The notes beneath the pieces are model-generated. The model ran no database searches. It worked only from the letters and a program-made list of their open reading frames with translations, and was not told where the DNA came from. This document shows, in pieces, positions 25,771-37,145 of a DNA stretch of 64,000 bases. Location: positions 1,922,001 to 1,986,000 of the forward strand of contig NZ_AP025503.1 of NCBI RefSeq assembly GCF_024347575.1, read 5' to 3'. Made by a program: the position numbers and the translations under genes. Numbering within the stretch: the stretch's first letter is position 1; the number at the start of each line of letters is the position of its first letter. This DNA comes from Vibrio pelagius. GTDB taxonomy: Bacteria; Pseudomonadota; Gammaproteobacteria; Enterobacterales; Vibrionaceae.

Positions 25771-26312
25771 GCATAACGCCCAATTCTTACGAACAACCTC
25801 ATAATTTTCTTATAAAACAATGAGTAAACGCGCACCGCTCATTCTAATCTAATGAGTTTCGCCAAAAAGCCACCTGATTAAATGGATTTAAGAGGGAACC
25901 CTAACGATGCGCGACGTTCAAATTCTACAGCAAACTATTGAAGAGCAATGCCCTAACACTTACAAAAAACGACTGAGATCTCTAATACTTGCTACTAACG
26001 CCTTCATCAACGGCTCTGATCTAACTCTCACCAAAATGGGACGAGCTCTCAACACATCGTCGAGTACTCTCCATACCTAGGCTTGGTAAGAAAGTACGTT
26101 GTCACCGGATATATCGAATACAAGAGTCCTAATATCATTGGGCAATGGTGGAATATCAGTGCCTCACGCACACTTGTGGGTTAGGTGAATTGTGAGGGGA
26201 TCCGCCAGTGCCTCGTTAAGGGGCAGCAACGCGCTGTCACCAAACTTCAATTTACCACCCTAAACATCAAGTCACCACACGTTGACTATCCTTCCTGAAC
26301 GCTTTGTTATAG
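25771..26312 (-). other. attC of cassette 7 (HigBA2), split by an IS10-like remnant
   Basis: R' GCATAAC (25771-25777) and R'' GTTATAG (26306-26312) are separated by the 423-bp remnant at 25786-26208. Removing it and one copy of the decayed 9-bp duplication leaves a site of usual length, though its right part is rather diverged. Confidence 0.75.
25786..26208 (+). mobile_element. Internally deleted IS10-like (IS4 family) remnant in an attC
   Basis: Both ends match the full element at 32076-33409: left end CTTACGAACAACCTCAT, right end GGATCCGCCAG. About 0.9 kb is missing from the middle: sequence jumps at about 26054 from the 5' transposase region to the 3' region. A broken transposase reading frame begins at ATG 25907 (MRDVQILQQTIEEQCPN) and the original stop is TGA 26193-26195. 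Flanks CGCCCAATT and TGCCTCGTT are a decayed 9-bp target duplication. Many substitutions show it is old. Confidence 0.88.
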
Positions 26313-26621
26313 CTCAGCGATATGCGACAGAGTTTCTGGATGACGCTGAACCAGTTTTAAAAGGGTTACAGCTTGCCCATTTGGTGCGCTACGCCCTTGT
26401 TCCCAGTTCTCTAGTGTACGAGATGAAGTATGCAACAAACGAGCAAAAACACCACGAGACATATTAAACTGCTCTCGAATGCTCACGATTTCATCAGGTG
26501 AGATATTTAACTCACTGATGTCGTTAACTTGATAAGTTTTAAGGGTAAGCTTGCCCTCTGAATGCTCTTTAGCCTCAACAAGTGCTGAGCTTAACTCTGC
26601 AAATAAATCACGATTGCTCAT
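26307..26621 (-). CDS. higA2: Antitoxin HigA2 (XRE-type HTH)
   Basis: A 104-aa antitoxin, very close to what I recall of V. cholerae HigA2. The disordered N-terminal part (FAELSSALVEAKEHSEGKL) should wrap the toxin, and the C-terminal HTH (SRGVFARLLHTSSRTLENWE) binds the operator. The order toxin-then-antitoxin with a 14-bp overlap is that of higBA. TAA is inside R''. Confidence 0.92.
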   Translation of the reverse strand: MSNRDLFAELSSALVEAKEHSEGKLTLKTYQVNDISELNISPDEIVSIREQFNMSRGVFARLLHTSSRTLENWEQGRSAPNGQAVTLLKLVQRHPETLSHIAEL

Positions 26622-26940
26622 TACGCCACGCCTCCATAAAAGCCTTTAGTTGTTTCTTTTGGTCTGCGGTTAAGTCCGACATTTCATTCTTGCCGTAAAT
26701 CGTCAGCAAGTAGAAACGACGCTTTTCATCGAGGAAGTAATAGATAACGCGAGAGCCACCACGCTTGCCTTTACCTTTACTTGCAAATCGAACCTTTCGC
26801 AAACCACCTGTACCTTGAATTACGTCCCCCTGTTTCGGGTTGGACATTAACTCAGCTTGGAAAAGTCTAAACTCTTCATCACTGAGGTATTCACTACGGT
26901 ACTTTTCAAATATAGTTGATTCGACGAATACACTTTTCAT
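26608..26940 (-). CDS. higB2: Toxin HigB2 (RelE superfamily mRNA interferase)
   Basis: A 110-aa ribosome-dependent RNase toxin. The sequence MKSVFVESTIFEKYRSEYLS and KGKGKRGGSRVIYYFLDEKR match HigB2 as I recall it. ATG at 26940 is correct: the longer frame to 27072 runs through promoter and attC. Unlike most cassettes, this pair has its own promoter and operators directly upstream. Expected to stabilise the array. Confidence 0.93.
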   Translation of the reverse strand: MKSVFVESTIFEKYRSEYLSDEEFRLFQAELMSNPKQGDVIQGTGGLRKVRFASKGKGKRGGSRVIYYFLDEKRRFYLLTIYGKNEMSDLTADQKKQLKAFMEAWRNEQS

Positions 26941-26946
26941 GCGCAA

Positions 26947-26995
26947 AGTATACGCAAGTGGCGTACAGATAGCAAAACTATACGTGATTAACGTA
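26947..26995 (-). promoter_or_regulatory. higBA2 promoter with two palindromic operators
   Basis: On the minus strand TTGCTA (26970-26975) and TATACT (26947-26952) are spaced by 17 bp. TACGC-N5-GCGTA (26951-26965) overlaps the -10, and TACGT-N5-ACGTA (26981-26995) lies upstream of the -35; centres are 30 bp apart. This suits autorepression by HigA2 dimers. Confidence 0.75.
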
Positions 26996-27029
26996 GTTAT
27001 TGTCATTTGAGGTGCAGATCTGTAGTGAA

Positions 27030-27143
27030 CTATATATGTGAGCAACGCAATACCGAAGCCGCCGCAAACCACCTAAAACACTAAAATCAACGCATATTAA
27101 AAATGCCACGTGTTGCGAATCACTCCTAAACAGTTTGTTAGCA
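27030..27143 (-). other. attC of cassette 6 (Phd/ParE), with lost R' core
   Basis: R'' GTTAGCA (27137-27143) and the internal consensus (GTGAGCAACGC, AAATGCCACGTGTTGCGAATC) are good. The left end reads AGTGAACTATATATGTGAGC where other sites read TAACGCCCTGTTAAGGTGTGAGC, so no proper R' is left. The border between this cassette and HigBA2 probably arose by a deletion or is mutated. Confidence 0.72.
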
Positions 27144-27157
27144 CTCATTACCAAAGG

Positions 27158-27460
27158 CTATTGCTTACCCAACAAGAATTTACGCAAATCTCTCTCTACA
27201 CGCATAACGAACAGAACAAACACTTTGTCACCGTCTTGTTTATAGAAAACACGACATGGATTAACGACAACTTCACGATAACTTAAATGTTCTAGCTCGG
27301 GTGGAATACGACCTGACTCTGGGAAAGTTTGTAGGCGTTCGACTTTGGAAAAGATCGTTTGTACTAACTGCTTTGCAGCTACGATATTTTCAAGTGCGAT
27401 GTATTCAGCGATATCATTGAGGTCAGATAACGCTGGTTCAGTCCAGATTACTTCAGCCAT
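27158..27460 (-). CDS. ParE/RelE superfamily toxin
   Basis: A 100-aa toxin, opening MAEVIWTEPALSDLNDIAEYIA, ending RVERDLRKFLLGKQ, with the R-x-Y-like core YREVVVNPCRVFYK. ParE-type members poison gyrase and RelE-type ones cleave mRNA; sequence alone does not decide. It overlaps the antitoxin gene by 13 bp. Second gene of the cassette. Confidence 0.88.
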   Translation of the reverse strand: MAEVIWTEPALSDLNDIAEYIALENIVAAKQLVQTIFSKVERLQTFPESGRIPPELEHLSYREVVVNPCRVFYKQDGDKVFVLFVMRVERDLRKFLLGKQ

Positions 27461-28456: not shown

Positions 28457-28517
28457 TTCAGCCTCCATAAAGTTCCATTTTCAGCATAGAGCATAGACAT
28501 AATGACCCCCATGAGGT

Positions 28518-28595
28518 GCTAGCCTCCAATATCGTGGGTTAGCTAAAAGCCAGAGCCATAATTAGTGCGTCAAACAACTAAATTTGGAGGCTAGC
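28518..28595 (+). promoter_or_regulatory. Hairpin hiding the transposase ribosome-binding site (copy 1)
   Basis: GCTAGCCTCCAA (28518-28529) is perfectly complementary to TTGGAGGCTAGC (28584-28595), which contains the GGAGG of the transposase and ends directly at its ATG. A transcript coming from outside would fold and block translation, while one starting between the arms would not. Confidence 0.75.
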
Positions 28596-29749
28596 ATGAG
28601 TAAAGATAGCATAATTTTCATTGGCTTAGATACGCATAAGTCATTTATTCAAGTCGCTGTTTTACAAGAACATCGAGGGGCAAACCCACAACAGTTAGGC
28701 CGCATTAAATCCAATAAGTCCGCACTAATTAAATTGGCCAAACAACTGCAATCCAAGTATCCCAAAGCGACTCTGCACTTTGTCTATGAAGCGGGGCCAT
28801 GTGGTTACTGGACTTATCGCTTGATTACGAGCCTTGGACACTGCTGTTATGTCGTCGCTCCATCGTTGATACCTAAGAAGCCTGGTGATCGAGTTAAAAC
28901 TGACAAGCGAGATGCAGTGAAGCTCGCGAAGTTGTTAAAAGCCGAAGAGCTTACACCCATCTATGTACCGGAAGCCGAGGATGAAGCCATTCGAGACCTC
29001 TCACGTGCCAGAGAAACGGCCATGAAAGATCTCAAAGACGCAAAGTTCCAACTCAAAGGCTTTCTTCTTCGCAATAATATCCAAGCTACGGTGAATGATA
29101 ACTGGTCTAAAAAGCATCTACGGTGGCTGACCGACCTCATTCTTCCTCACCATAGTCAACAAATCGTCTTACAAGAGATGATCATCACTATCAATGAACG
29201 CATACAACGCCTTCAACGACTCGACAACGAACTGCTCCATCAGGTTAAAAACTGGCGATATTATCCTGTAGTGAAAGCCATACAAGCTATGCGTGGAGTG
29301 AGGTTACTCGTAGCTCTCGGCACAATAGCTGAACTGGGTGACCTACGACGGTTCGACCATCCAAGAAAACTTATGGCTTACCTTGGACTTGTACCAACAG
29401 AAAACTCTAGTGGAGGTAAACTCGCCGCGGCAGTCTGACAAAGTGTGGTAACAGTCGGGCTAGACGGTTGCTCGTTGAAGGCGCACATACCTATAAGCAC
29501 AAAGCGAACATCTCTGTAGAGCTTCAACTAAGGCAAGAAGGACTGCCTAAAGAGATCATCGATATCGCTTGGCAAGCCCAGCAAAGGTTATGTCGTCGTT
29601 ACCAACGACTGCTGCAAAAAGGTAAACACCGAAATGTCGTTGTTGTCGCCATTGCAAGAGAGATGATCGCCTACATCTGGGCGATTGCGCGTGAAGTTGT
29701 CATCAGCGACGTAGATCCTAAAACACGAATCGCTCGTTTACCGGCATGA
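28596..29749 (+). pseudogene. IS110-family transposase, frameshifted copy
   Basis: Identical in kind to the intact copy at 34009-35163 except for one missing A near 29419 (GGTAAAC instead of GGTAAAAC). The frame therefore ends at 29438 after GGKLAAAV and the C-terminal serine region continues in another frame to 29749. The N-terminal DEDD part is intact. The element might be moved in trans by copy 2. Confidence 0.9.
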
Positions 29750-30056
29750 AGAAAGAATTAGTGTTATCGCATTGGATAAAGCATCGGGAGTGGCACAAAC
29801 ACCGACGGCGTTAGGACGGCAATATAGCTTCGGCTATATTGAACCACGAGCATAGACTGAAGACAGGTGCTACGACGGAACAAGTAAGGTAGGCTCTACT
29901 CATCAAACGATGAGCAATCCACGTATATCAGCATGAGAACCGACGACATTACTTGCTTCATCTATGTGATAACACTATCCCCTAAATAACAAGAAAGGCT
30001 CTATAAATGCGGGAGCAGAAACTTCTACGCTCTTATTGACAGTGGGGGTCATATCA
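29750..30056 (+). ncRNA. Candidate bridge/seek RNA region of IS110 copy 1
   Basis: The 3' non-coding region of an IS1111-like element, where this group is known to encode the guide RNA. A 9-bp stem with UUCG loop lies at 29820-29841. GGCGTTA (29807-29813) is the reverse complement of TAACGCC on the target, and GAGCATA (29848-29854) equals the left target flank. Possible donor guides are GACAT (29945-29949, same as the left end) and TGATA (29967-29971, reverse complement of the TATCA right end). The RNA ends are not determined. Confidence 0.65.
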
Positions 30057-30178
30057 ACGCCCTGTTAAGGTGTGAGCAACGCAATACTGATGCCGCCGCA
30101 TAATACCTGAAACACTAAACGCAACGCATAGTAAAAATGCCACGCGTTGCGAATCACTCTTAAACAGTTTGTTAGGGC
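30057..30178 (-). other. attC of cassette 4, R' core split by IS110 copy 1
   Basis: ACGCCCTGTTAAGGTGTGAG onward gives a full VCR-like site to R'' GTTAGGG (30171-30177). Its R' core was GCATAAC, of which GCATA now lies at 28491-28495 beyond the IS. Confidence 0.85.
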
Positions 30179-32075: not shown

Positions 32076-33409
32076 CTTACGAATCCCCTCATAATTTCTA
32101 TATAAAACAATGAGTAGACGCACATCGCTCATTCTGATCTAATGAATTTCGCCAAAAACACACCTGAACAAATGGATTTAATAGGGAGCCCTAACGATGC
32201 GCGACATTCAAATTCTACAGCAAACGATTGAGAATCAATGCCCCGAAATTCACAAAAAACGACTTAGTTCTCTGATACTTGCAACCAAAACGGTTCTTGA
32301 TGGCTCTGAACTAACACTCACCAAAATTGGAAGAGCTCTCGACACTGATACCACAGTGAAACATGCTATCAAACGTATCGACCGATTACTTGGTAATAGC
32401 AATCTACACCGTGAAAAAGAGTCCATATATAAATGGCATGCCTCCTTCATTACCCGTGCCAATCCTTTTCCCGTGGTTCTGGTTGATTGGTCGGATGTTC
32501 GAGAGCAACTGCGCTATATGACATTACGCGCTTCAGTGTCTGTTAAAGGTCGTGCCGTCACGCTTTATGAGCAGGCATTTGAGTACAAAAACTATAACTC
32601 ACCCAATAGCCACCAACACTTTCTCGATAAGCTGCAGTCTTTACTCCCAGAAGGTTGCACACCTATCATTGTTTCCGACGCAGGCTTTAGAAATACTTGG
32701 TTTCGACAAGTCACCAACAAAGGTTGGTTCTGGGTTGGACGTGTACGTGGTGAAGTCTCGATTAAGTGTGGCGAAGACTCATGGCAATGGAATAAAACGT
32801 TTTACCCTCAAGCAACAGATAAGCCGCAGTTTTTAGGGGAAAGCCAACTGGCTAAACGCTCACCGCTTAAGTGCTTTGCTTACTTATATAAGAGTCATCC
32901 CAAAGGCAGAAAGGCCCATCGGCACAGCCGAACGTGCCAAAAACACTCGGCAGGAAAAGTGTTCCATAAAGGAACAAAAGAGCCCTGGCTTCTGGTCACT
33001 AATATCCCCAACCATGTGCTTAACGGCATTAAAGTAACCCGTTTATACGCCAAAAGAATGCAAATTGAAGAGTCATTCCGAGATCTAAAAAGCCCAGCCT
33101 ACGGATTGGCGCTCCGCCATAATCGAACACGTTGCACCAAGCGCATTGATATCTTATTGCTTATGGCATTGATGGCCGAAATCATCATGTGGTGGAATGG
33201 CTTAATCGCCATGCAAGCGAAATGGCATTATGACTTTCAAGCCAACACCATCAAGCATCGTCGGGTACTCTCCATTCCAAGGCTTGGTAAGGAAGTTCGT
33301 TGTCATAGAAGATACCGAATACAAGAGTCCCAATATCAATGGGCAATGGTGGAATATCAGCGCCTAACGCATACTTGTGGGTTGGGAGAATTATGAGGGG
33401 ATCCGCCAG
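32076..33409 (+). mobile_element. IS10-like insertion sequence (IS4 family), complete
   Basis: 1334 bp, close to the 1329 bp of IS10. Imperfect terminal inverted repeats CTTACGAATCCCCTCATAAT (left) and CTGGCGGATCCCCTCATAAT (right, reverse complement). A perfect 9-bp duplication CGCCCTGTT flanks it (32067-32075 and 33410-33418), which is the IS10 duplication length. It carries one intact transposase gene. Confidence 0.94.
32197..33396 (+). CDS. IS4-family (IS10-like) transposase
   Basis: A 399-aa DDE transposase that aligns by eye along its length with IS10/Tn10 transposase: KRIDRLLGN, FPVVLVDWSDVREQ (first D), TPIIVSDAGFRNTW (second D), KRMQIEESFRDLKSPAYGL (YREK-type E). No internal stop, so it could be active. 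The ATG at 32197 matches the IS10 start region. Confidence 0.93.
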   Translation: MRDIQILQQTIENQCPEIHKKRLSSLILATKTVLDGSELTLTKIGRALDTDTTVKHAIKRIDRLLGNSNLHREKESIYKWHASFITRANPFPVVLVDWSDVREQLRYMTLRASVSVKGRAVTLYEQAFEYKNYNSPNSHQHFLDKLQSLLPEGCTPIIVSDAGFRNTWFRQVTNKGWFWVGRVRGEVSIKCGEDSWQWNKTFYPQATDKPQFLGESQLAKRSPLKCFAYLYKSHPKGRKAHRHSRTCQKHSAGKVFHKGTKEPWLLVTNIPNHVLNGIKVTRLYAKRMQIEESFRDLKSPAYGLALRHNRTRCTKRIDILLLMALMAEIIMWWNGLIAMQAKWHYDFQANTIKHRRVLSIPRLGKEVRCHRRYRIQESQYQWAMVEYQRLTHTCGLGEL

Positions 33410-33830: not shown

Positions 33831-33930
33831 GTCCTTTCCTCTTTGTGTAATAAACCAAAGAAGAGAATAAACTAAAGAACTAGATACGTATGAGATCAAT
33901 TGCGCATAGACATAATGACCCCCACGAGGT

Positions 33931-34008
33931 GCTAGCCTCCAATATCGTGGGTTAGCTAAAAGCCAGAGCCATAATTAGTGCGTCAAACAACTAAATTTGG
34001 AGGCTAGC
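33931..34008 (+). promoter_or_regulatory. Hairpin hiding the transposase ribosome-binding site (copy 2)
   Basis: Same 12-bp inverted repeat as in copy 1: GCTAGCCTCCAA (33931-33942) with TTGGAGGCTAGC (33997-34008), next to the ATG at 34009. Confidence 0.75.
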
Positions 34009-35163
34009 ATGAGTAAAGATAGCATAATTTTCATTGGCTTAGATACGCATAAGTCATTTATTCAAGTCGCTGTTTTACAAGAACATCGAGGGGCAAACCC
34101 ACAACAGTTAGGCCGCATTAAATCCAATAAGTCTGCACTAATTAAATTGGCCAAACAACTGCAATCCAAGTATCCCAAAGCGACTCTGCACTTTGTCTAT
34201 GAAGCGGGGCCATGTGGTTACTGGACTTATCGCTTGATTACGAGCCTTGGACACTGCTGCTATGTCGTCGCTCCATCGTTGATACCTAAGAAGCCTGGTG
34301 ATCGAGTTAAAACTGACAAGCGAGATGCAGTGAAGCTCACGAAGTTGTTAAAAGCCGAAGAGCTTACACCCATCTATGTACCGGAAGCCGAGGATGAAGC
34401 CATTCGAGACCTCTCACGTGCCAGAGAAACGGCCATGAAAGATCTCAAAGACGCAAAGTTCCAACTCAAAGGCTTTCTTCTTCGCAATAATATCCAAGCT
34501 ACGGTGAATGATAACTGGTCTAAAAAGCATCTACGGTGGCTGACCGACCTCATTCTTCCTCACCATAGTCAACAAATCGTCTTACAAGAGATGATCATCA
34601 CTATCAATGAACGCATACAACGCCTTCAACGACTCGACAACGAACTGCTCCATCAGGTTAAAAACTGGCGATATTATCCTGTAGTGAAAGCCATACAAGC
34701 TATGCGTGGAGTGAGGTTACTCGTAGCTCTCGGCACAATAGCTGAACTGGGTGACCTACGACGGTTCGACCATCCAAGAAAACTTATGGCTTACCTTGGA
34801 CTTGTACCAACAGAAAACTCTAGTGGAGGTAAAACTCGCCGCGGCAGTCTGACAAAGTGTGGTAACAGTCGGGCTAGACGGTTGCTCGTTGAAGGCGCAC
34901 ATACCTATAAACACAAAGCGAACATCTCCGTAGAGCTTCAACTAAGGCAAGAAGGACTACCTAAAGAGATCGTCGATATTGCTTGGCAAGCCCAGCAAAG
35001 GTTATGTCGTCGTTACCAACGGCTACTGCAAAAAGGTAAACACCGAAATGTCGTTGTTGTCGCCATTGCAAGAGAGATGATCGCCTACATCTGGGCGATT
35101 GCTCGTGAAGTTGTCATCAGCGACGTAGATCCTAAAACACGAATCGCTCGTTTACCGGCATGA
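34009..35163 (+). CDS. IS110-family transposase (bridge-RNA-guided recombinase)
   Basis: A 384-aa serine-type DEDD recombinase. The N-terminal RuvC-like domain has FIGLDTHKS (D), YEAGPCGYW (E) and KTDKRDAVKL (DxxD). The C-terminal Tnp domain carries the nucleophile region SLTKCGNSRARRLLVEGAH after LMAYLGLVPTENSSGG. All four acidic residues and the serine are kept. The ATG at 34009 follows GGAGG. Family members insert site-specifically under direction of an RNA made by the element. Confidence 0.95.
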   Translation: MSKDSIIFIGLDTHKSFIQVAVLQEHRGANPQQLGRIKSNKSALIKLAKQLQSKYPKATLHFVYEAGPCGYWTYRLITSLGHCCYVVAPSLIPKKPGDRVKTDKRDAVKLTKLLKAEELTPIYVPEAEDEAIRDLSRARETAMKDLKDAKFQLKGFLLRNNIQATVNDNWSKKHLRWLTDLILPHHSQQIVLQEMIITINERIQRLQRLDNELLHQVKNWRYYPVVKAIQAMRGVRLLVALGTIAELGDLRRFDHPRKLMAYLGLVPTENSSGGKTRRGSLTKCGNSRARRLLVEGAHTYKHKANISVELQLRQEGLPKEIVDIAWQAQQRLCRRYQRLLQKGKHRNVVVVAIAREMIAYIWAIAREVVISDVDPKTRIARLPA

Positions 35164-35470
35164 AGAAAGAATTAGTGTTATCGCATTGGATAAAGCATCG
35201 GGAGTGGCACAAACACCGACGGCGTTAGGACGGCAATATAGCTTCGGCTATATTGAACCACGAGCATAGACTGAAGACAGGTGCTACGACGGAACAAGTA
35301 AGGTAGGCTCTACTCATCAAACGATGAGCAATCCACGTATATCAGCATGAGAACCGACGACATTACTTGCTTCATCTATGTGATAACACTATCCCCTAAA
35401 TAACAAGAAAGGCTCTATAAATGCGGGAGCAGAAACTTCTACGCTCTTATTGACAGTGGGGGTCATATCA
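35164..35470 (+). ncRNA. Candidate bridge/seek RNA region of IS110 copy 2
   Basis: As in copy 1: GGCGTTA (35221-35227) and GAGCATA (35262-35268) on either side of the UUCG hairpin. At this copy's own site the left match is GCATA and the right match TAACGCC. The region has no ORF, yet matches copy 1 closely. Confidence 0.65.
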
Positions 35471-35593
35471 ACGCCGCGTTAAGTGGTGAACAACGCCAAC
35501 CACCAAACTTAACCCATTGTACCTTATACACTTAAGCTGACATGAACCAAAATCGCCAAGCGTTGTGAATCCGCCTTAAACGCCTTGTTATGT
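35471..35593 (-). other. attC of cassette 1, R' core split by IS110 copy 2
   Basis: ACGCCGCGTTAAGTGGTGAA onward to R'' GTTATGT (35587-35593). Sequence is more diverged than other long sites, but keeps CGCCAAGCGTTGTGAATCC. Confidence 0.83.
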
Positions 35594-35952: not shown

Positions 35953-36170
35953 ACATAACAGCTATATTAGACAGAATAATTCTGCACTTAAATACAGAAT
36001 TATTCTGTCTAGTATCTTAATGCCATAAACGATACCCCGTTTTTATGCAAACTAACAGTAACTTAAGACCTACAACCCCCTCCCCACATCCCAAAATGCA
36101 GAATTTTTCTATATAGCATGAATTGATGTGCCAAACTGAAGAACATGTATGTATAACCAGTTATAGCTTA
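35953..36170. other. attI site and integrase promoter region
   Basis: The junction core ACATAAC (35953-35959; GTTATGT on the array strand) equals the R'' of cassette 1, so cassette 1 is joined here to attI. The stretch up to the intI start is AT-rich, has no CDS, and must carry attI binding sites and the intI promoter. Confidence 0.75.
35969..36010. promoter_or_regulatory. 16-bp inverted repeat in attI with a LexA-like box
   Basis: AGACAGAATAATTCTG (35969-35984) and CAGAATTATTCTGTCT (35995-36010) are perfect complements around 10 nt. Across the loop lies CTG-N10-CAG (35982-35997), the LexA half-site spacing, with an AT-rich centre. Vibrio integrases are known to be SOS-controlled, so LexA binding is plausible, though the box departs from the CTGT half-site and is 160 bp from the start codon. 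Confidence 0.5.
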
Positions 36171-37145
36171 ATGAAAAAATCACCATTTTTATCGTATATA
36201 CAAGAATATATGCTTGGACGACACTATGCCCTTCGCACAACGGAGGCTTACATTTATTGGATTCACCAATACATTCTTTATCATGATAAAAAGCACCCTA
36301 AAAACTTGAATTCCAGGCATGTAGAAGATTTCCTAACGCACCTCGTTGTCAACAAAAAGTCAGCGAGGAAAACACAAAGTCTGGCCCTCAATGCATTAGT
36401 TTTTTTATACAAAGAAATTATTCAAAAACCCGTAGAACTTGATATGCAATTTCGGCGTTCAGATAAATCAAGAAAATTGCCAACAGTCATGACTCCAGAA
36501 GAAACTGGAAGGCTATTCAATCACTGTTCACCTAACTACAAATTACCTTATCAACTAATGTATGGATCAGGGCTGCGTTTAATGGAATGTCTGCGCTTAC
36601 GTATACAAGATATTGATTATGAATATAACTTAGTGCGAGTATGGCAAGGGAAAGGAGGCAAAAACCGCATAGTTACAATAGCACCAGAGCTATTTCCCGC
36701 TATCAAACAACAGCAACAAAAATCCGCAAGTTACTATCATCAAGATATGAATGATCCGGTTTTTTCTGGCGTATATATTCCTGAAGCTCTCGCTAGAAAA
36801 TACCCAAACGCAGAAAGGAGCCTAAATTGGCAATTTCTCTTTCCCTCTAATCGTTTGTCACCAGATTTACAAACAGGCGAGCTACGTAGGCACCATATTC
36901 ACCCCACAGCGCTTCAAAAGCACATTAAGATAGCAGGCCAAAAAGCCAACATTGAGAAAAATATCTCGTGTCATACTTTAAGGCACTCATTCGCTACGCA
37001 CCTTCTTCAAAGCGGAGCGGATATCAGAACCGTTCAAGAACAACTAGGGCACACAGATTTGAAGACAACGCAAATCTATACTCACATCATTGATAGAGGC
37101 GCCAATGGCGTTGTTAGCCCACTATCAAGAATATTTGTAAAATAA
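36171..37145 (+). CDS. intI: Integron integrase IntI (Vibrio IntIA/IntI4 type)
   Basis: A 324-aa tyrosine recombinase that joins cassettes at attI and shuffles attC sites as folded single strands. Catalytic residues are visible: R in YGSGLRLMECLRLR, H/R in CHTLRHSFATHLL, H in LGHTDLKTT and Y in QIYTH. The integron-specific insert (EALARKYPNAERSLNWQFLFPS) separates it from XerCD. The ATG at 36171 (MKKSPFLSYIQEYM) matches the V. cholerae IntIA N-terminus; a longer frame from 36123 is unlikely. No frameshift, so it should be active. Confidence 0.96.
   Translation: MKKSPFLSYIQEYMLGRHYALRTTEAYIYWIHQYILYHDKKHPKNLNSRHVEDFLTHLVVNKKSARKTQSLALNALVFLYKEIIQKPVELDMQFRRSDKSRKLPTVMTPEETGRLFNHCSPNYKLPYQLMYGSGLRLMECLRLRIQDIDYEYNLVRVWQGKGGKNRIVTIAPELFPAIKQQQQKSASYYHQDMNDPVFSGVYIPEALARKYPNAERSLNWQFLFPSNRLSPDLQTGELRRHHIHPTALQKHIKIAGQKANIEKNISCHTLRHSFATHLLQSGADIRTVQEQLGHTDLKTTQIYTHIIDRGANGVVSPLSRIFVK

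Follow-up and report, generated by a model that had tools for sequence, protein, structure and literature searches.

The window analysed here, a stretch of 64,000 nucleotides from the Vibrio pelagius contig NZ_AP025503.1, carries two copies of an insertion sequence (IS) within the cassette array of an integron. Coordinates of both copies, of their parts and of their flanks are given on the plus strand of the window. The gene at 36123-37145 is presumably an integron-integrase-like gene, as named by inspection of its protein, and the cassette frames next to the IS copies lie on the minus strand, with the IS transposase genes opposed to them. IS copy 1 (28495-30055, 1561 bp), delimited by its flanks, its ends and the empty sites L181 and L183 described below, consists of a 7-nt left extension (AGACATA), a subterminal inverted repeat, the transposase gene, a 3′ non-coding region, the second repeat and a 3-nt right extension (ATC). 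IS copy 2 (33908-35469, 1562 bp) has an intact transposase frame and the same left extension AGACATA, and its right end ATC closes 306 nt of non-coding DNA that follow the transposase stop. The subterminal inverted repeats measure 10 bp in copy 1 (ATGACCCCCA at 28502-28511 and TGGGGGTCAT at 30043-30052) and 11 bp in copy 2 (ATGACCCCCAC at 33915-33925 and GTGGGGGTCAT at 35456-35466). A third copy, reported as 100% identical to copy 2, is located on the second replicon of the same genome (G000:C2:410171-411746).

Other features of the window and genome were noted in passing. An intact transposase-like frame, IS4-like by inspection, lies between the two IS copies in the cassette array (32197-33396, 399 aa), and small RelE/HigB-like and antitoxin-like frames, also named by inspection and typical of cassette arrays, are found on the minus strand at 26307-27460. 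The genome additionally holds a remnant of this IS in which a deletion has removed the guide region (G000:C2:456209-456341; L004 and L005), and the right end of this remnant adjoins AACCCCTTGTTAACG, a different right flank. A search of the whole window against Rfam at the gathering threshold returned VrrA alone (952-1082), with no match to a bridge RNA family.

Transposase and family placement

The transposase gene of copy 2 (34009-35163) encodes 384 aa with matches to DEDD_Tnp_IS110 (PF01548, E 2.6e-14), Transposase_20 (PF02371, E 1.2e-19) and the NCBIfam model transpos_IS110 (NF033542, 277 bits versus a cut-off of 140). In copy 1 (28596-29749) a frameshift near 29424 divides the gene into two open reading frames, 28584-29438 and 29468-29749. 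The E-SSG residues are invariant among 12 aligned transposase proteins, and by its DEDD transposase domains and SG motif the window element is assigned to the IS110/IS1111 superfamily. It displays traits of the IS1111 family, namely subterminal inverted repeats of 10 to 11 bp with 7- and 3-nt extensions and the longer non-coding region downstream of tnp (306 nt); a 3-bp right extension is itself an IS1111 family trait.

At 384 aa, the copy-2 transposase stands against 330-350 aa in the IS1111 family, and its identity over approximately 300 aligned residues is 23% with IS5708 and 24% with ISPa21 (for the 347-aa ISPa21 protein, 24% over 289 aa). A tree was built from 65 of the 76 elements retained below and four IS1111-group references; it carried a long-branch warning and was rooted for drawing only. 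Among these 69 proteins, ISPa21, IS5708, IS4321 and ISKpn2 are split from all 65 relatives by a 100/100 branch. Vibrio relatives with 41-42% transposase identity (L028, L029, L031 and L042-L045, four of the listed copies being in one genome, G231) sit at sites that resemble one another, (G or T)CC|AGATGGT...AAG|A, and may be located within the genes of another transposon.

Insertion site in attC

Copy 1 is flanked as ...AGAGCAT|IS|AACGCCCTG, with the left target half AGAGCAT at 28488-28494, and copy 2 as ...TGCGCAT|IS|AACGCCGCG; the third copy reads TTTCAT|IS|AACGCC. The remainder of each interrupted attC follows directly on the right, at 30056-30178 for copy 1 (AACGCC...TTTGTTAGGGC) and at 35470-35593 for copy 2 (AACGCC...CTTGTTATGT). 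Read in cassette orientation, on the minus strand, the insertion point is GGCGTT^ATGC, which, from the attC box names and the core rule, we take to fall within GTTRRRY, the 7-bp core of the R′ end of attC.

Natural empty sites were sought among 19 homologues of the copy-1 cassette from other Vibrio genomes. Two of them, L181 and L183 (approximately 84-85% identical), contain ...AGCATAGAGCAT|AACGCC without the IS, L196 reads GTCT|AACGCC, also without it, and the remaining homologues differ at that place. Since the two empty sites run uninterrupted through GAGCAT|AACGCC, no base was gained or lost on insertion, bar a one-base ambiguity (A). The empty sites concern the copy-1 cassette only, and the left-flank cassette of copy 2 had no match outside its own genome among the 227 genomes searched.

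The same site recurs among relatives. The right flank was readable in 128 loci, a number that counts repeat fetches, and begins with AACGCC in 69 of them; a TTGTTA-like second attC arm is present 25-200 bp further on in 51 of 57 unique AACGCC flanks versus 7 of 40 unique non-AAC flanks. Judged by these flanks, insertion into attC, a trait of the IS1111-attC group, is shared by the window elements. A sequence-only reading of the window had rightly tied the target guides to attC; its proposal that such an element could enter any integron with a 'GCATAACGCC-type border' was too specific on the left.

Homologues and covariation analysis

Homologues with 40-100% transposase identity were drawn from plasmids, viral contigs, whole genomes and named contigs, the last of these contributing the best 80 of 454 confirmed relatives. 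After prior removal of L164, 171 loci were scanned, with element ends located by inverted repeats: 2 fell below the transposase threshold, 20 were partial, one had no ends and 148 were parsed, a number that includes repeat fetches of the same place. Fifteen loci with unreliable or altered ends were dropped (L012, L039, L067, L104, L106, L111, L112, L114, L116, L124, L128, L130, L141, L144 and L171), a choice made after some of the non-coding regions had been inspected by eye. Removal of 14 further loci lacking a flank left 119 elements, and thinning by similarity of the non-coding region left 76. L110 and L113 were counted for the right flank and right end only, and counts for the left side are thus out of 74.

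The non-coding regions were aligned blind to the flanks and scanned across offsets and on both strands for pairing with four DNA segments, G-U pairs being allowed: the left and right flanks (LF, RF) and the left and right element ends (LE, RE). Runner-up z values of 4 to 6 were taken as the background due to relatedness. Thinning to single representatives of 75% transposase clusters (30 elements) left the same four RNA partners in first place, at z 7.8 for RF, 6.8 for LF, 9.1 for RE and 5.9 for LE, with runners-up at or below 3.6. With one per 60% cluster (18 elements) they again came first, at 6.1, 5.6, 7.0 and 5.3 in the same order, with runners-up at or below 2.9. An alignment-free comparison of words in an element's own versus swapped combinations was significant for RF (p<=0.0005) and RE (p<=0.0005), and lacked significance for LF (p 0.55) and LE (p 0.52 for the same strand, 0.10 for the complement), so the left target guide and the right donor guide rest on the aligned scan.

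Putative target guides

The sequence-only reading had pointed to GGCGTTA and GAGCATA on either side of a 9-bp UUCG hairpin, and both motifs and the hairpin are indeed present in each copy. The right target guide, GGCGUUA (29807-29813 in copy 1; 35221-35227, identical, in copy 2), can pair with T|AACGCC on its top strand. In the scan, RF+2 to +7 paired with 29806-29811 on the top strand in 387 of 453 cells, where 274 were expected (z 11.3; the next of 510 offset and strand tests reached 4.0). The left target guide region, GAGCATA, lies at 29848-29854 in copy 1 and 35262-35268 in copy 2, and LF-4 to -1 paired on the bottom strand with its GCAT at 29850-29853 in 231 of 296 cells, with 144 expected (z 10.6; next 4.4 of 522 tests). 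Two target guides on opposite strands, in the order proposed from the sequence, are therefore backed by covariation across the 76 elements. For the left guide this backing extends to about 4 nt (GCAT), and the 7-nt length claimed for it was overstated; lengthening it from 4 to 6 nt at LF lowered z from 10.6 to 8.2. The rest of the left flank varies.

Full pairing at RF+1 to +6 was found in 59 of the 76 elements, versus 9.6% of swapped combinations, and at LF-4 to -1 in 29 of 74, versus 7.4%. The window element itself pairs at 6/6 positions for RF, 4/4 for LF, 5/5 for RE and 3/5 for LE. In the alignment, right-target pairing is incomplete in 17 of the 76 elements; some of these are alignment slips (L030, L126), and L103 and L108 match poorly. 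Homologues that keep GGCGTTA and GAGCATA unchanged at unrelated targets, which the sequence-only reading had named as evidence against guiding, were looked for, and the guides were found to covary with the target instead. In four distant relatives at non-attC targets (L110, L113, L118 and L160), the guides match their sites at 8/8 bases.

Related Alteromonas elements, five of which fall in one 100/100 clade of the tree while L089 and L092 lie outside the tree, appear to show natural retargeting. The right guide is AGGGCGTT in L074 and L095 at AACGCCC, AGGGTGTT in L076 at AACACCC, AGGAAGTT in L087 at AACTTCC and AAAAAGTT in L092 at AACTTTT. The exceptions, with an imperfect right-guide match, are L086 (AGGGTGTT at AACTTCC) and L089 (AGGGCGTT at AACGCTA). 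In this group, guide changes mostly follow the sites.

Candidate donor guides

The scan also returned a partner for each element end. LE+4 to +7 paired with 29881-29884 on the top strand in 206 of 294 cells, against 136 expected (z 10.0; next 6.1 of 522 tests), and this partner kept its lead in the set of 18 elements thinned to 60% clusters (z 5.3; runner-up 2.5). The corresponding candidate right donor guide (29881-29885 in copy 1; 35295-35299, identical in sequence, in copy 2) would pair with LE+7 to +3 on the top strand, at the left end of the element, with only 3/5 pairs in the window element, and four or five pairs at LE+3 to +7 were counted in 42 of 74 elements versus 13.8% of swapped combinations. 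RE-3 to -1 paired with 29927-29929 on the bottom strand in 226 of 228 cells, with 137 expected (z 12.4; next 6.0 of 528 tests). The candidate left donor guide, AUAUCAG (29925-29931; 35339-35345, identical, in copy 2), comprises, in the same sense, the right end ATATC and then AG, the dinucleotide with which the left end begins. GACAT (29945) and TGATA (29967), offered as donor guides by the sequence-only reading, were not the top partner of either end in the offset scan, and 29881-29885 for the left end and 29925-29931 for the right end plus core take their place.

Pairing at RE-5 to -1 is complete in 74 of the 76 elements, versus 23.1% of swapped combinations. The right-end trinucleotides seen are ATC, ACC, AAG, GAG, CAG, AGG, CGG, AGC and GCC. 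The trinucleotide of the right end equals that of the guide in 63 of the 76, a figure that covers eight different trinucleotides. In 11 of the 76, many of them interrelated, ACC in the DNA faces AUC in the RNA through a U-G wobble, the reverse combination occurring in 0/76, and in the other two the right end and guide are unpaired at one base each. An initial regular-expression search for the right-end guide gave a site in 68 of the 76 elements, several of them misplaced, and was superseded by the alignment. Around the presumptive crossover, RF+1 is A in 75 of 76 elements, LE+1 and +2 are AG in 73 of 74, and RNA positions 29930-29931 are AG in 76 of 76.

Three elements with 98-99% identical transposases, L008, L049 and L100, have a right end (GGGAGTCATACC) of the kind seen in the ATACC lineage and a left end resembling the one in the ATATC lineage, and their ends are possibly recombinant; in L008 and L049, the mixed-type ends are still wobble-paired in the left donor guide. 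In ISPa21 (L177:2440-3830), the non-coding region contains GGATATACG, which resembles the right end of that element, CATATA, in this one sequence compared by eye, and a right-end donor guide may thus occur in the IS1111 group proper.

Predicted RNA structure

Two hairpins are conserved, one between each pair of guides. Hairpin 1 (29820-29841), between the two target guides, has 9 bp and a UUCG loop (CAATATAGC-UUCG-GCTATATTG), and hairpin 2 (29899-29914) lies between the two donor guides. RNAalifold was applied to 33 attC-type sequences of 43 listed, 10 being excluded for length, distance or a non-attC target. Both-sided changes in some of these 33 homologues preserve 4 of 7 consensus pairs of hairpin 1 and 6 of 6 pairs of hairpin 2.

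The fold of the single window sequence gave z -2.6 versus shuffles. The RNAalifold consensus pairs the right-guide columns 15-18 with columns 160-163, and the minimum-energy fold has the left target guide region, 29850-29863, paired to a downstream segment, 29955-29967, that contains CUAUGU. Because of this pairing, open loops at the target guides are not evident from the predicted folds alone; the predicted pairing with 29955-29967 could mask the left target guide in a longer RNA.

Discussion

From the comparisons above, we consider it highly probable that the 3′ non-coding region encodes a four-guide bridge/seek RNA aimed at the attC integrase core. Along this putative RNA, the guides would follow the order right-target, left-target, right-donor, left-donor, with one hairpin for each guide pair. 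The transposase would hold the joined element ends, ATATC|AGACATA, via the donor guides, while the target guides would hold the attC R′ core, GCAT|AACGCC, and recombination at the shared A would insert the element into the integrase core, GGCGTT^ATGC, in a single orientation. We infer that the RNA is transcribed, is bound by the transposase and causally guides it, and that the joined ends exist as an intermediate.

In an alternative reading, the two target guides of the RNA are the only ones that act: the transposase would read the element ends through protein-DNA contacts at their inverted repeats, which are present in most parsed elements, and the matches at 29881 and 29925 would be structural or repeated protein-binding motifs. 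This would agree with the ISEc11 system, where an 82-nt seekRNA sufficed for movement according to the accessible part of PMC11187229. We nevertheless regard it as unlikely, because the RNA tracks the variable right-end trinucleotide in 74 of 76 elements (one wobble type counted), the left end is tracked too and on the opposite strand, and the wobble departures, many of them interrelated, run one way, with DNA ACC facing RNA AUC 11 times and the reverse 0/76 times. A transposase that recognises the fold of single-stranded attC, with guide matches arising as a by-product of shared descent, has in its favour the single-stranded, folded form in which integron integrases recognise attC sites. It seems very improbable here, as non-attC targets are matched at 8/8 bases in L110, L113, L118 and L160, guides follow attC variants in the related Alteromonas elements (with exceptions), and the covariation signal persists at 18 clusters.

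It may also be asked whether the window element is, in every respect, an ordinary member of the documented IS1111-attC group. Elements of this group were reportedly described in 2008-2009, Tetu and Holmes 2008 being among the founding papers. Subterminal repeats, the downstream non-coding region, attC targeting, the guide-hairpin-guide layout and a transposase gene opposed to the cassettes all speak for membership. We hold it to be rather doubtful, given a transposase that is 24% identical to that of ISPa21 and separated by the 100/100 branch from four IS1111-group references, and an insertion at the opposite end of attC from ISPa21 (one copy compared). We lean slightly towards a separate, mostly marine lineage of the IS110 superfamily that would have reached attC independently of IS1111-attC, with a four-guide bridge RNA directed to the R′ crossover core, and that would drift among attC subtypes by guide mutation while its donor guide tracks its own changing ends.

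ISPa21 and, by report, ISKpn4, ISPst6 and ISPa25 share with the window element the use of one attC position, subterminal repeats and a downstream non-coding region. The layout of right-target guide, hairpin and left-target guide is common to the window element, ISPa21 (by eye) and ISKpn4 and ISPst6 (available text of PMC11187229). However, the ISPa21 copy on pC45-VIM4 has entered the smr attC between L″ and R″ and has left the R′ end of that attC (GGGCGTTAGATGC) intact, whereas the window elements lie in R′, so the window elements occupy the opposite attC end in this comparison with one ISPa21 copy. The pC45-VIM4 record says 'IS110 family transposase', and the name ISPa21 comes via the accessible text of PMC7232449, which describes an identical integron ending in ISPa21.

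RNA guiding in the IS110/IS1111 superfamily is already known, and the present case differs in transposase lineage and in the R′ target position. SeekRNA guiding, including that of the attC-targeting ISKpn4 and ISPst6, was shown in 2024, and the right-before-left order of target guides was reported for IS1111 elements (both from the portion of PMC11187229 available). The ISEc11 seekRNA and its relatives (Siddiquee 2024, in part) resemble the window RNA in being a 3′ non-coding RNA with a top-strand match 5′ of a bottom-strand match, in the overlap of these matches in the target and in natural redirection. For ISEc11, the accessible text of PMC11187229 describes target matches alone and an 82-nt form that suffices, whereas the window RNA would have two donor guides besides; donor guides may therefore be dispensable in parts of the family.

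In IS621, the bottom strand is the partner of the left target guide and the top strand that of the right target guide, the donor guides acting 'in a similar manner' (PMC11208158, available part). The IS621 bridge RNA (Durrant 2024; Hiraizumi 2024; both in part) has, like the candidate RNA of the window, four guides with the same strand assignments and separate target and donor parts. It precedes the recombinase gene and its core is CT, whereas the window RNA follows the gene, places the right target guide ahead of the left and has as its core a single shared A, as far as the boundaries tell. According to the accessible text of PMC11208160, donor-reading bridge RNAs have been demonstrated in the case of IS621, and six ISfinder elements, including three IS1111-group members, are predicted to have one. 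Those six predictions (ISCARN28, ISAzs32, ISPa11 and three others; Durrant 2024, Extended Data Fig. 10, as available) include LTG, RTG, LDG and RDG, as does the window element, and came from inspection of single elements; the guides proposed here were derived from covariation across an attC-targeting clade that is mostly marine. By that scan, two features of a bridge RNA, opposite-strand target guides and donor guides for both ends (RE z 12.4, LE z 10.0), are found together.

The two accounts published in 2024 diverge: one describes a short, target-only seekRNA, the other a bridge RNA by which the element ends are read as well. The clade described here offers dozens of natural variants in which bases of the end and of the RNA change together, which makes the use of donor guides by IS1111-type elements directly testable. 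The clade also illustrates how integrons may be exploited by an RNA-guided element that is directed at a short sequence required by integron integrases. A literature search, conducted largely without full texts or subscription papers, returned no report of such an element in attC R′, and the accessible text of a survey of Shewanella integrons reports no insertion sequence interrupting attC (PMC9229058). Among our homologues, L068 and L091, from Shewanella and Parashewanella records, have AACGCC flanks.
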